Shown here: piece by piece, positions 28,915 through 48,723 of the stretch
Layout of the letters: the number at the start of each line of letters is the position of its first letter
How positions within the stretch are numbered: the first letter of the stretch is position 1
Position numbers and translations under genes: made by a program
Source: Haloarcula marina
GTDB taxonomy: Archaea > Halobacteriota > Halobacteria > Halobacteriales > Haloarculaceae
Assembly (NCBI RefSeq): GCF_024218775.1
Contig: NZ_CP100404.1
Span: forward strand, 3,162,001 to 3,226,000
Length of the DNA stretch: 64,000 nt
Reading direction: 5' to 3'
The notes under the pieces: generated by a model
What the model was told of the DNA's origin: nothing
Database searches by the model: none
The model's input: the letters and a program-made list of their open reading frames with translations, nothing else

Positions 28915-29571
28915 ATGGCTACTGAGGCGACGTTCACGGTTCCGTCAGACCAGTTTCCCTTGGGGACAGTGTTCGACCAACTGCCGAACGTGAGGGTCGA
29001 ACTGGAGCGAATCGTCCCCGCACAGAACGTGGTGATTCCCTACTTCTGGGTGCGGGGAACCGAAGTCACCGACATCGAGGGCGAGTTCACCGAGCACCCG
29101 GGCGTGAAGAGCATTCGGCTAGTCGACTCTGTCGATGACGAGTACTTGTTACGCGTCGAGTGGGCGATAGACTACGACGACGTGCTAACTGTACTGGCGG
29201 AGACAGGGGTTCCACTGATCGAGGCCATCGGGACAAACCACCAGTGGACATTCGAGGTTCGCGGTGATGACCGAAGTGACATCGTTGACTTTCAACGACG
29301 CTGTCGAGAGCTGGACATCCCGATCACGATGACGGCACTGCACGCACTCACGCCGGTTGAGACGACAACCGAAGCCGGCCTCACTGACACCCAGCTAGAG
29401 GCGCTGGTACTTGCCTACCAGCGAGGGTACTATGAGTCCCCCCGCCAGGTCACGTTGGAAGCCCTCGGCGAGGAACTCGGCATCTCACAGCAGGCCGTCG
29501 GCTCCCGCCTCCGTGGGGGAATCAAACACGTCCTCGGGAGCACACTCTCAGCCCTTACAGTCCAATCCTGA
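28915..29571 (+). CDS. Bat-type helix-turn-helix regulator
   Basis: A 218-residue haloarchaeal transcription regulator of the bacterio-opsin-activator (Bat/HTH_10) group. The first 150 residues are the conserved domain that precedes the HTH (VRVELERIVPAQNVVIPYFW, EYLLRVEWAIDYDDVLTVLA, HQWTFEVRGDD). The C-terminus is the HTH: LTDTQLEALVLAYQRGYYES with VTLEALGEELGISQQAVGSRLRGG. No PAS or GAF sensor is fused, so the input is unknown. It directly precedes the 16-base tandem repeats and the DUF7344 gene, and may control them (inference). Confidence 0.88.
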   Translation: MATEATFTVPSDQFPLGTVFDQLPNVRVELERIVPAQNVVIPYFWVRGTEVTDIEGEFTEHPGVKSIRLVDSVDDEYLLRVEWAIDYDDVLTVLAETGVPLIEAIGTNHQWTFEVRGDDRSDIVDFQRRCRELDIPITMTALHALTPVETTTEAGLTDTQLEALVLAYQRGYYESPRQVTLEALGEELGISQQAVGSRLRGGIKHVLGSTLSALTVQS

Positions 29572-29587
29572 GTGGGTACGTAAGCCA

Positions 29588-29696
29588 GGGTTGTGTATGA
29601 AAAGGGTTGTGTATGAAAAGGGTTGTGTATGAAAAGGGTTGTGTATGAAACGGGTTGTGTATGAAACGGGAGGTAAGAACGGGTTGTGTATGAAAA
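29588..29696. repeat. 16-base tandem repeats (five contiguous plus one spaced)
   Basis: Units are gggttgtgtatgaaaa (29588, 29604, 29620), gggttgtgtatgaaac (29636, 29652), then a 13-base spacer gggaggtaagaac, then a sixth unit at 29681. Because 16 is not a multiple of 3, each unit's ATG falls in a new frame; an internal ATG reads MKRVVYEKGCV then stops on the ATGA two units later. Sixteen bases is about 1.5 helical turns, so units would alternate DNA faces. The array ends eight bases before the ATG at 29704. Confidence 0.9.
29669..29674 (+). promoter_or_regulatory. Shine-Dalgarno-like ggaggt inside the repeat spacer
   Basis: This lies 11 bases before the GTG at 29686 and 15 before the ATG at 29690. 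It is one of few clear ribosome sites in a window dominated by leaderless genes, and it makes the GTG at 29686 a credible alternative start for the DUF7344 gene. Confidence 0.4.
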
Positions 29697-29703
29697 AGGT
29701 AAG

Positions 29704-30096
29704 ATGATTGTCGTCGTTCGTCTGTATGTGGATATGGCGAGTAAGGGGCCTCTCACCTTCGACTCGGTACTCGACCTGTGTCGGCATCGGTATCGGCGGA
29801 TCGTCCTCGGGACGCTCGTTGAAGACCGGCGGTCTGTAACGATCGACGACCTTACCGAAGTCGTCCTCAAGTACAATCACGATACGACAATTGCAGCGGC
29901 GTCTGAGAACGTACGAACCGATATTCGCCTCTCACTCCATCACGTTCACCTCCCGAAGTTGGCCTCGGGAGGACTCATAACGTATGATCCAGAGCGACAG
30001 TTCGTGGAACCAACCGCGCAACTCGATCAAGTACAGTCGACCCTGTCTACGGTTCTCGGTGCCGAGCCCACACTCGAACCAGTACTCGAACGTTAG
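29704..30096 (+). CDS. DUF7344 winged-helix domain protein
   Basis: 130 residues holding the haloarchaeal DUF7344 winged-helix pattern: LDLCRHRYRRIVLGTLVEDR, then SVTIDDLTEVVLKYNHDT, and RLSLHHVHLPKLASGGLITY (the LYHxHLPKLxxxG core). Such domains are usually predicted DNA-binding regulators. The start is uncertain: GTG 29686, ATG 29704 and ATG 29734 are all in frame. The C-terminus after residue 105 (QSTLSTVLGAEPTLEPVLER) is short and variable. It follows the Bat-type gene on the same strand, separated by the tandem repeats. Confidence 0.72.
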   Translation: MIVVVRLYVDMASKGPLTFDSVLDLCRHRYRRIVLGTLVEDRRSVTIDDLTEVVLKYNHDTTIAAASENVRTDIRLSLHHVHLPKLASGGLITYDPERQFVEPTAQLDQVQSTLSTVLGAEPTLEPVLER

Positions 30097-30357: not shown

Positions 30358-32382
30358 CTACGCCAGGAAGACGTGTCGCGGCCGGTCGGCCAGCACGTCC
30401 CGGCCCCAACTCACCGTGTCCGAGAAGGCGTCGGAGCGGAAGAACGCCATCGCGTCCTCCTTGCTGTCCCACTGACTGGCGATGAACATGTCGTTCGCGT
30501 CGTCGACGTTCGCCAGCAGTGCCGTCTCCCGGTGGCCGTCCATGTCGGCCAACAGGCCGCCGACGGTGTCGAACTTCTCGACGAACTCCTCGCGGTACTC
30601 CGGTTTGACGGTGTAGAACATCCCCATCGTCCCGAAGCCGTCGCCCTCGCCCTGCCGGTGCACCACCTCGGGCAGGTCCGTGAGGTACTCGCTGGCCGTT
30701 TCAGCGGCGTCCTCGGTGTCCCACAGCGAAGCGACGGCGGTGGTGTCCGAGTCGGCGTCGCGGTACACCGTCGTCCGGACGTGCGTATCGTAGCGGTCGA
30801 ACGCGCTCCGGAGGTCGGCCACCTCCTCGGCGAGTGCGTCGGCGTCGGCCCGCGAGTAGACGACCAGCGCGTACACGTCCTCGCCGTGCGGTTGTCCGGC
30901 GTAGACGCCCTCGGATTCGAGTTGCTCGCGGATGGACTGCGAGGAGGCGGCCGCCTCGCCGCCGTTTCCTCCCGACTCGTCAGCGCCGTCGTCGGCCGCG
31001 CCCAACTGCCCGCCCAGTTGCTCCTCGACCCCGTCAACGTCGCTGAGGAACCCGGCCGCCGTCTCGGCGGCCTCCTTGGCCGTCCAGATGCTGACGAGGT
31101 AGGTCTGCCCGCTCTGTGCGCGGACGGTGGTCGTGACGTGGCGGTCGTAGTGGTCGAAACTGTTCCCGAGTTCCTCCACATCGTCGACGATGTCCTCGGC
31201 GTCGGCCGACGAGTGGAAAATCAGCGCGTAGTCGCCCGCGTCGTAGGCGTTCCCCTCGTGGAGGCCGAGGCGACCGACTCGCTGGACGGCGTCGTCTACC
31301 TCCTCGAAGTCACCGGACACGTCCGGGCGGCCGCCGCCCGAACTCGATTCAGTGCCCCCGGGAGACGGATGGTCGTCGGCGGAGGGGTGGTCGCCGCTGG
31401 CGCTGTCGCCGCCGTGTGGGTGGTCACCTTCGCCCGCGTTGCCGGGGTGCGGGCCGCCGCGTTCGTCGGCGTCGCCACCGTGGGCGTGTCCCGCACCGGC
31501 CTCGCCGTGCGCGTGGGCGGCGGCCGTCTCAGCGTGGTCCGGTACCTCGGCGTGCCCGCCCGCCTGCGCGGCCGTCTCGACGGCCCGGTCGTCGGTGGGG
31601 ACCCGCTGGCCCGCCAGCACCGCGGGGAGGTCCGTCGGGTCGAACCGCCGTCCGACGTAGAACGGCCCGAACTCGGCGAACTGCGACGTGGAGGGGTCGA
31701 ACCGCATCTCCGTCAGCAGTTCCTTGATGTTCGTCATGTCCTCACTCCAGAGCGTGATGCCCCACTCCCAGTCGTCGAAGCCGATAGACCCGCAAATCAT
31801 CTGGTTCACGTCGCCGCCGTAGCCCCGGCCGATGTCGCCGTGGCGCTTGATGTGGGCCGCTCGCTCCTCGAAGGACGTGTCGTACCAGTTCTGGTCCGGG
31901 TCGCGACGCTTGCTCATCGGGTAGAAACAGACGAACTCCTCGTCGGGAACGTCGGGGTGGAGACGCGCCTGAATGTACTGCGCGAGACCCGAATCGTCGT
32001 CCACCTCGCCGTCGAAGTACTCGCGGGATTTCTCGGTGTAGCCCGACGCCTCCGTGACCGAGACGTACGAGAACGCGCGCTCGGTGAACGCCGCGAGTTC
32101 CGTCTGCTCGAAGTGTCGCTCGGCCGCATCGAGGTCGCCCATCGTCGGCCGGAGGTGGAGAATCATGAGGTCCGCCTTGTGGCCGAGGACGGTGTAGACA
32201 GCGGTCTGTCCCTCCTCGGCGTCTTCGAGGGCCTCGTAGGCCGAGAAGAAGTCGATGCCCTCGGAGAGCGCCCGGTCGCGGACGCGCGAGGGGGCCTCGC
32301 GCCACGCGTCCCAGTCGATGCGCCGACAGTCGTGCAGCACGTACCAGCCCTCCTCCGTCTGCGGGGGCTTGCGTTGGTCCAT
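30358..32382 (-). CDS. pitA: PitA: HemQ/chlorite-dismutase-like protein with extra C-terminal modules
   Basis: 674 residues. The first 255 are a chlorite-dismutase/HemQ fold; CFYPMSKRRDPDQNWYDTSF and KRHGDIGRGYGGDVNQMICG carry the YPMSKRR..NWY and heme-His regions of coproheme decarboxylases. A His/Gly/Asp-rich linker follows (about 260-355, with HAHGEAGAGHAHGGD), suited to metal binding. Then come two related 100-residue units (about 358-455 and 480-577, sharing Y/V-AL-I/V-x-HSSAD/YSRAD and FD-RYD-THV patterns) and a C-terminal antibiotic-biosynthesis-monooxygenase domain (from FGTMGMFYTVKPEYREEF). The known Haloferax PitA has one Cld and one monooxygenase domain; this one is longer. The hemC-cobA-hemD genes lie 4 kb away. 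Confidence 0.88.
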   Translation of the reverse strand: MDQRKPPQTEEGWYVLHDCRRIDWDAWREAPSRVRDRALSEGIDFFSAYEALEDAEEGQTAVYTVLGHKADLMILHLRPTMGDLDAAERHFEQTELAAFTERAFSYVSVTEASGYTEKSREYFDGEVDDDSGLAQYIQARLHPDVPDEEFVCFYPMSKRRDPDQNWYDTSFEERAAHIKRHGDIGRGYGGDVNQMICGSIGFDDWEWGITLWSEDMTNIKELLTEMRFDPSTSQFAEFGPFYVGRRFDPTDLPAVLAGQRVPTDDRAVETAAQAGGHAEVPDHAETAAAHAHGEAGAGHAHGGDADERGGPHPGNAGEGDHPHGGDSASGDHPSADDHPSPGGTESSSGGGRPDVSGDFEEVDDAVQRVGRLGLHEGNAYDAGDYALIFHSSADAEDIVDDVEELGNSFDHYDRHVTTTVRAQSGQTYLVSIWTAKEAAETAAGFLSDVDGVEEQLGGQLGAADDGADESGGNGGEAAASSQSIREQLESEGVYAGQPHGEDVYALVVYSRADADALAEEVADLRSAFDRYDTHVRTTVYRDADSDTTAVASLWDTEDAAETASEYLTDLPEVVHRQGEGDGFGTMGMFYTVKPEYREEFVEKFDTVGGLLADMDGHRETALLANVDDANDMFIASQWDSKEDAMAFFRSDAFSDTVSWGRDVLADRPRHVFLA

Positions 32383-32431
32383 GTCGGCGGTTACGGTTCG
32401 ACGGTAAGGAAACTTCCCATCTCCCCGGCGG

Positions 32432-47553: not shown

Positions 47554-48723
47554 TCAGTCGTCATCATCTTCGTCTTCGTCTCCATCGTCGCTGTCGTCAT
47601 CATCTTCGTCTTCGTCTCCATCGTCGCTGTCGTCATCATCTTCGTCTTCGTCTCCATCGTCGCTGTCGTCATCATCTTCGTCTTCGTCTCCATCGTCGCT
47701 GTCGTCATCATCTTCGCCTTCGTCATCGTCGTCACTGTCGTCATCATCTTCGTCTGCCTCCCCATCGTCGTCGTCCGAATCGGTATCGCCGTCGCCGTCG
47801 TCACGTTCGTCGCCTTCGTCGTCGGACTCCTCCGACGGTTCGACGACGAATATTCCCTCCTCGTTCTCGTCCCCGGGCGTCTGCGCCTCCGCCCCGTCGT
47901 CAGTCGCGAACGGGTCGGCCGCCGACTCGCCGCTCTCGTTGGTCAGGAGCGCCTGACAGGAGGCCGTCGAAATCGTCAGCGACGCGTTGCGGTCCAGCGC
48001 CGTGCGGTCGTAGCGCTCGACGCCGTTGCCGGACGCGTTCGAGAGCAGTTGCCACCGGTCGACGCGGCCGTCGTAGTACCGCCCGAACAGCGCGGCCCGT
48101 TCGTTGAACGCCGGGTCGACCGTGACGGTGAACTCGTCGCCGAGGCCGGTGTAGACGCCGCCGTCAGTCGCGCCGTCCTGCCACGTCCAGTCGACGCGGG
48201 CCTCGCTCCCGTTGGTCGCCCAGCGGTCGTTGTTCCCCGGCGCGCGGTACTGGTCGTCTCTGACCGTCCACGTGCCGTTTTCGGGGAGGCCGCTGATGGC
48301 GAACGAGGCGGCCCCGCCGGTGGAGTTGGCGTTGCCCTCGTTCCCGTGGACGAAGACGACGCTCAGCGTGTCGTCCGCGCGCGTGGCCGTCCCGTTCGTG
48401 TCCGCGTAGAGGAACGCGAGACTCGTGTTCGCTCGCTGAAGGTCGGTCGTCCCTTCGGACCCGTAGGCCGACCCCGTCGTGTTGACGGAGGGATTGTCGG
48501 GGAAGGGGTTGCGGTAGTCGTAGAAGCGAAGCGCCGATTCGTCGCCGGTGACGGGCGTCACCTGCCCACAGCGGTCGCCGTTGACCGCAGTGTAGGTGGG
48601 CGTCTCGGCCGCCGTCTGCGGAGCGGCGACGCCGACCAACAGCGCCGTCGTGAGGGCCACGGCGACGACGAGAGCACCGAGTCGGACGACGCCGCCCCGG
48701 AGCGACGGAGAGTCGAACGTCAT
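47554..48723 (-). CDS. Secreted haloarchaeal protein with repetitive acidic tail (paralogue 1)
   Basis: 389 residues. A Sec-type signal (LGALVVAVALTTALLVGVAA) is followed by an extracellular domain of about 230 residues (YDYRNPFPDNPSVNTTGSAY, LQRANTSLAFLYADTNGTAT, FVHGNEGNANSTGG, NERAALFGRYYDGRVDRWQL) with two Cys that could form a disulfide and many N-x-S/T sites. The last 90 residues are Asp/Glu/Ser repeats from a 36-base minisatellite (SDDGDEDEDDDD times four or more). There is no PGF-CTERM or other anchor. It lies beside paralogue 2; function unknown. Confidence 0.82.
   Translation of the reverse strand: MTFDSPSLRGGVVRLGALVVAVALTTALLVGVAAPQTAAETPTYTAVNGDRCGQVTPVTGDESALRFYDYRNPFPDNPSVNTTGSAYGSEGTTDLQRANTSLAFLYADTNGTATRADDTLSVVFVHGNEGNANSTGGAASFAISGLPENGTWTVRDDQYRAPGNNDRWATNGSEARVDWTWQDGATDGGVYTGLGDEFTVTVDPAFNERAALFGRYYDGRVDRWQLLSNASGNGVERYDRTALDRNASLTISTASCQALLTNESGESAADPFATDDGAEAQTPGDENEEGIFVVEPSEESDDEGDERDDGDGDTDSDDDDGEADEDDDDSDDDDEGEDDDDSDDGDEDEDDDDSDDGDEDEDDDDSDDGDEDEDDDDSDDGDEDEDDDD
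47557..47700. repeat. 36-base minisatellite, four perfect copies plus degenerate ones
   Basis: The unit gtcgtcatcatcttcgtctt + cgtctccatcgtcgct repeats exactly at 47557, 47593, 47629 and 47665. Two diverged copies extend it to about 47772. It codes on the minus strand for 12-residue acidic blocks and keeps frame, so copy number can vary without breaking the gene. Confidence 0.95.

Follow-up and report, generated by a model that had tools for sequence, protein, structure and literature searches.

Tandem multiplication of a predicted operator behind a Bat-type regulator gene in Haloarcula marina

Between a Bat-type regulator gene (hereafter bat) and a DUF7344 gene of Haloarcula marina lies a tandem array of five contiguous 16-bp units and a sixth, spaced one, and comparison with related loci indicates that the array probably consists of tandem copies of the operator through which the neighbouring Bat/HTH_10 regulator acts. 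It is also possible, although we advance it with distinctly less confidence, that operator number (1 to 26) acts as an evolutionary tuning knob of a horizontally spreading regulator-operator cassette, which would make the array the extreme case of a rule across the family, by which HTH_10 regulators have a palindromic operator right behind their own gene.

The array and its flanking genes

The window analysed is a 64,000-nt stretch of contig NZ_CP100404.1, at 3.16-3.23 Mb on the main replicon. Numbered from the first letter of the window, the relevant features are as follows.

28915-29571, + strand: Bat-type regulator gene, 218 aa (PF15915, E 4e-15; PF04967, E 7e-16)
29581-29585, + strand: TATA-position element of the first copy, a degenerate TAAGC at -10 to -6 from TTG, a placement fixed in 60 loci
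29588-29603, + strand: operator unit 1 (predicted), GGGTTGTGTATGAAAA
29604-29619, + strand: operator unit 2 (from the sequence, Tandem Repeats Finder and genome search, as for units 3 to 5)
29620-29635, + strand: operator unit 3
29636-29651, + strand: operator unit 4, with an AAAC end
29652-29667, + strand: operator unit 5, with an AAAC end
29668-29680, + strand: spacer of 13 bp, GGGAGGTAAGAAC, containing ggaggt and the TATA-position element TAAGA (29674-29678)
29681-29696, + strand: operator unit 6, promoter-proximal, GGGTTGTGTATGAAAA
29705-29707, + strand: conserved TGA (column conservation in 60 loci), predicted transcription start region
29734-30096, + strand: DUF7344 gene, ~120 aa, presumed target (PF24035, E 1e-16; start from ortholog ATG alignment)

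The existence of the array is confirmed, and the original prediction of five contiguous units plus one spaced unit, flanked by the Bat-type gene (5′) and the DUF7344 gene (3′), can be read directly in the sequence. The contiguous stretch (29588-29667) consists of three copies of GGGTTGTGTATGAAAA and two of GGGTTGTGTATGAAAC. Tandem Repeats Finder gave the array a score of 165, making it the second-highest locus of the window, and a 15-mer search allowing up to three mismatches returned seven matches in the window, versus 0.29 expected. The genome-wide search for the repeat that had been proposed at the outset located the exact 15-mer at the array alone. The start at 29588 is as first reported, but the array ends at 29696 rather than at 29703, and the DUF7344 start that had been placed just after it is instead ATG 29734, the start conserved in an alignment with orthologs; GTG 29686 and ATG 29704 are in frame with DUF7344 but are not conserved as starts.

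The array-adjacent protein has the architecture that defines the Bat/HTH_10 family, a BAT domain (PF15915, residues 3-150) followed by a C-terminal HTH_10 domain (PF04967, residues 156-205). A domain search detected in it no PAS or GAF sensor domains above cut-off, of the kind found in Halobacterium Bat; NarO and DmsR are likewise devoid of them (PMC11218638). The source genome contains 26 BAT-domain matches, and no relatives of bat were found among viral contigs. For DUF7344, nothing was found in the open-access literature. At one related locus (L022), the gene after bat encodes a protein that fuses HTH_10 with DUF7344, and another locus (L062) encodes a close homolog; judged from its domain composition, this fusion is a sign of a functional tie between the two families.

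A promoter element that accompanies bat

The sequence after the stop codon was read at orthologous and paralogous bat loci, taken from plasmids, from one genome per species and from the genus. Of the 60 bat orthologs (57-100% identity), which span many haloarchaeal genera, nearly all are followed, behind the stop codon, by an element, mostly in a single copy, that has a fixed geometry: a TATA box, 5 bp, the quasi-palindrome TTGTATACNNAAAA centred on TA (TTGnnTAnnCAA), 7 bp and a conserved TGA. Relative to TTG, the TATA box occupies -10 to -6 and the TGA +21 to +23. An archaeal transcript is expected to start ~32 nt past its TATA box, and the TGA lies at about that distance, so that transcription is predicted to start there. 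The TGA at 29705-29707 occupies the same place with respect to the last copy of the array, at +21 to +23 from its TTG and ~32 nt past the TATA position.

Since a strict regular expression recovered only 20 of 59 loci, a 39-nt profile was used and scanned over both strands of each whole fetched locus (mostly ~8.6 kb). In leave-one-out scans, the post-bat site ranked first in 58 of the 59 loci, usually more than 20 bits ahead, and the best other site per locus scored far below it in nearly all of them. In the source genome, the best match to the model is unit 6 (G000:C1:3191673-3191708, E 1.2e-4), and there are no other matches at E<=1. A further match outside the array was found in Halogeometricum limi, behind a second bat paralog. 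In the 8.6-kb locus of Halorubrum sp. JWXQ-INN 858 (L031), the TATA-operator profile matches strongly at one more place, at 36.6 versus 46.4 bits for the post-bat site; this is possibly a second target or a second module. No prior description of the element was found in the open-access literature.

Two other roles for the element were considered and rejected. An autoregulatory operator would be expected at bat's own promoter, and the element is absent from the 170 bp upstream of bat at all loci. A regulon of dispersed sites in the source genome was set aside on counts of one-mismatch matches, 8+3 with the array copies included versus 6+2 for the reversed pattern, and on the lack of other model matches at E<=1.

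The gene downstream of the element varies. DUF7344 is the commonest, and a response regulator, a four-transmembrane (4TM) histidine kinase, a GCS2 ligase or a small Cys-rich protein may be encoded there instead. As the element is kept despite these changes, bat is its constant partner. Moreover, many BAT/HTH_10 paralogs (~37-52% identity) have a TTnnnTAnnnAA-type palindrome after their stop codon, usually behind a TATA-like box, although an evident element is missing after the stop in some distant paralogs. Given the constant link to bat, the fixed promoter geometry and the palindromes of the paralogs, the element most likely serves the neighbouring Bat regulator as its operator, and TTGTGTATGAAAA is probably the sequence that Bat would bind. 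What is found at these loci is what would be expected of an operator, namely a conserved quasi-palindrome at a fixed promoter position and linked to a regulator gene. The proposal that the upstream Bat protein has a multi-site operator in the repeats thus gains comparative support, in that a TATA-linked quasi-palindrome tracks orthologous bat whatever gene follows.

The paralog palindromes found right behind the stop codon are 12 bp long and include TTACATAGTCAA, TTGCTATAGCAA, TTGTTCGAACAA and CTGTATAGTAAG (L245-L260 and other loci, including G000:C1:1138675-1139304); at two loci (L243 and L257), the gene that follows was shown to be HalOD1. The recognition helix and the site covary, with SQQAV accompanying TTG.. 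sites and SRQA accompanying TTAC.. sites. All 18 sites paired with helix SRLRGG have GA at positions 8-9, as against 3/41 sites with other helices. This association is confounded by phylogeny, comprising 1-3 independent pairs only and not reaching significance, and it was ruled out as independent proof.

Arrays in other genomes and their history

At least two close copies of the element were found in 5 of 552 haloarchaeal genomes, in each case directly behind bat and ahead of a DUF7344 gene. These five genomes, which belong to three families, are listed below.

Source genome: 6 copies; 16-bp period, plus a 29-bp period from the spacer and unit 6
Genus-mate: 2 copies; 17 bp
Halogeometricum limi (L027): 2 copies; 29 bp
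Natrinema caseinilyticum (L014), on a plasmid: 4 copies; 29 bp
G085: 26 copies; 28 bp

The comparison of copy number called for by the original prediction shows that it differs between related loci. For example, the Natrinema and Halogeometricum limi loci are 98.5% identical across ~2.9 kb, yet they carry 4 versus 2 copies, and the source genome and its genus-mate, with flanks 93-94% identical, carry 6 versus 2. Such identity of the Natrinema and Halogeometricum loci across families suggests that the bat-DUF7344 cassette was recently transferred horizontally. In the 26-copy array of G085, the 13-nt core TTGTATATGAAAA is intact in 25 copies, and variants fall mostly in the spacer.

In single-copy relatives, the TATA position is mostly TTAAA or TATAAA, as against TAAGC at unit 1, and it is degenerate at most array copies (TAAGC, TAAGA, TAAGT or GAAGG). 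The spacer GGGAGGTAAGAAC is similar to the GGGAGTAAGTAC that separates the 29-bp units of Natrinema and Halogeometricum limi. Because the spacer and unit 6 together form a 29-bp period resembling the Natrinema unit, the simplest history would be that the TATA segment and operator were duplicated ancestrally and that units were then gained and lost. A single origin of the arrays was not rejected by a tree test (p-AU 0.66), and the likelihood was higher with the arrays held together; as one clade fits, fully independent origins are not claimed.

Predicted action, alternatives and known systems

In the proposed mechanism, the ancestral form would have had one site, arranged as TATA box, 5 bp, TTGTATACNNAAAA, 7 bp and TGA, and Bat, probably as a dimer because the site is quasi-palindromic, would bind there between the TATA box and the transcription start of the gene beside bat. 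Bound Bat would most likely repress this neighbour by blocking the recruitment of RNA polymerase. In one lineage, a segment of ~29 bp (TATA segment and operator) would have been duplicated, after which gain or loss of 16-29-bp units would have shifted the operator count to 2, 2, 4, 6 and 26. With additional copies, local occupancy may increase, and the DUF7344 gene may come under tighter or graded control. With periods of 16, 17, 28 and 29 bp, the sites are spread over the faces of the helix rather than aligned on one; such spacings are not those of an array optimised for cooperativity on one face, and crowding or local concentration is the more plausible effect.

Repression is favoured by the position of the site. 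For archaeal TrmB-type regulators, binding downstream of the TATA box hinders RNA polymerase recruitment and represses, while binding upstream activates (PMC10817205, PMC4158304). The site of the single-copy relatives lies between the TATA box and the start predicted from spacing, and, read by this analogy, it suggests that Bat represses the neighbouring gene. The same regulator and sites could instead constitute an upstream activating element. Its copies ahead of the proximal start would help a weak TATA to recruit TBP/TFB, and the extra ones would offset the decay of that TATA. The described Bat-type regulators (Bat, NarO and DmsR) are activators (PMC11218638, PMC7824242), which, like the degenerate TATA positions of the array promoters, speaks for activation, and NarO does both, with nar activated and dms repressed (PMC10062603). 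The sole site of the single-copy relatives, however, lies where binding by other archaeal regulators represses, and activation by the array seems rather unlikely to us. On a par with it in likelihood is the proposal that one copy is a functional operator and the rest a neutral minisatellite, produced by slippage or recombination and devoid of regulatory effect. The copies are indeed near-identical and labile in number, and other short tandem arrays occur in haloarchaeal DNA (two in the 494 kb searched, each comprising at least 3.5 near-identical copies). Neutrality fits less well with multiplication of the element at this locus only among the 552 genomes, with the retention of at least two copies by all five array genomes in three families, and with the nearly unchanged core of the G085 copies.

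Two further explanations fare worse. In place of Bat, the winged-helix-like DUF7344 protein encoded downstream could conceivably bind the element and repress its own gene; that gene is the commonest neighbour and adjoins the element, and the downstream protein of L022 is an HTH_10-DUF7344 fusion. The element is nevertheless kept, behind bat, where a response regulator, histidine kinase, GCS2 enzyme or Cys-rich protein follows, and binding by DUF7344 is accordingly quite improbable. Least probable by far, and barely credible, is the phase-variable translational switch that the original prediction had also raised, in which unit number would select the upstream ATG in frame with DUF7344. The units do contain the ATG/TGA overlap described, their length of 16 is not divisible by 3, and species differ in how many they carry. 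All six ORFs from array ATGs, however, are only 5-20 codons long and stop at or before 29705, with none entering DUF7344, and ATG is present in just 8 of 60 sites. The predicted transcript, moreover, starts past the last unit. Nor does ggaggt suit the Shine-Dalgarno role once suggested for it, as it sits in a decayed TATA segment, ahead of the predicted transcript start and ~60 nt before ATG 29734.

Taking the unit as a predicted Bat operator, the locus can be compared with several known systems. Bat, NarO and DmsR of haloarchaea share the HTH_10 DNA-binding domain with the array-adjacent protein, which also has a BAT domain, but they act on distant or several promoters, whereas the array-adjacent Bat would have one dedicated site at the neighbouring gene. 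Denitrification promoters of H. mediterranei contain a 12-bp semi-palindrome, CGAAYATDKTYG, whose regulator is unproven (PMC10062603, PMC11218638); the predicted site here differs in sequence (TTGTATACNNAAAA versus CGAAYATDKTYG), lies between the TATA box and the predicted start and is tandemly multiplied. Regulators of the TrmB, TrmBL1, Tgr and MDR1 type also use a palindromic site beside the TATA box, the position of which sets activation or repression (PMC4158304, PMC10817205), but their protein family is unrelated, and tandem arrays of whole sites were not found reported for them in the open-access literature. Local regulator-operator modules are likewise compact, with a regulator gene, an operator and a presumed target; here, the regulator's own promoter lacks a site, and the arrangement is therefore not classical autoregulation, while different genomes have different target genes behind the conserved operator. 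Finally, copy-number tandem repeats in promoters similarly differ in unit number between close relatives, but in the present case every unit amounts to an entire predicted binding site for a regulator, and the variation is known between genomes. Regulator-operator modules as such are already known, but for the Bat family no description of whole operators naturally arrayed in tandem was found in the open-access literature.

To our knowledge, HTH_10 regulators are numerous in haloarchaea and the binding site is known for few of them. A conserved palindrome just behind the regulator gene would allow the DNA specificity of many such proteins to be predicted directly from sequence. If operator number does act as a tuning knob, the count of tandem operators would set the cassette's output on the neighbouring gene. 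The arrays of 2, 2, 4, 6 and 26 predicted operators at one promoter provide a natural series for relating operator number to archaeal transcription.

Two other loci of the window were recorded in passing. On the minus strand at 30358-32391, a chlorite-dismutase-family domain is fused to an antibiotic-biosynthesis-monooxygenase (ABM) domain through a long, His- and Asp-rich linker. At 47557-47770, a 36-bp repeat is present in 5.9 copies, and its minus strand codes for an acidic DDDSDDGDEDED repeat at the C-terminal end of a protein.
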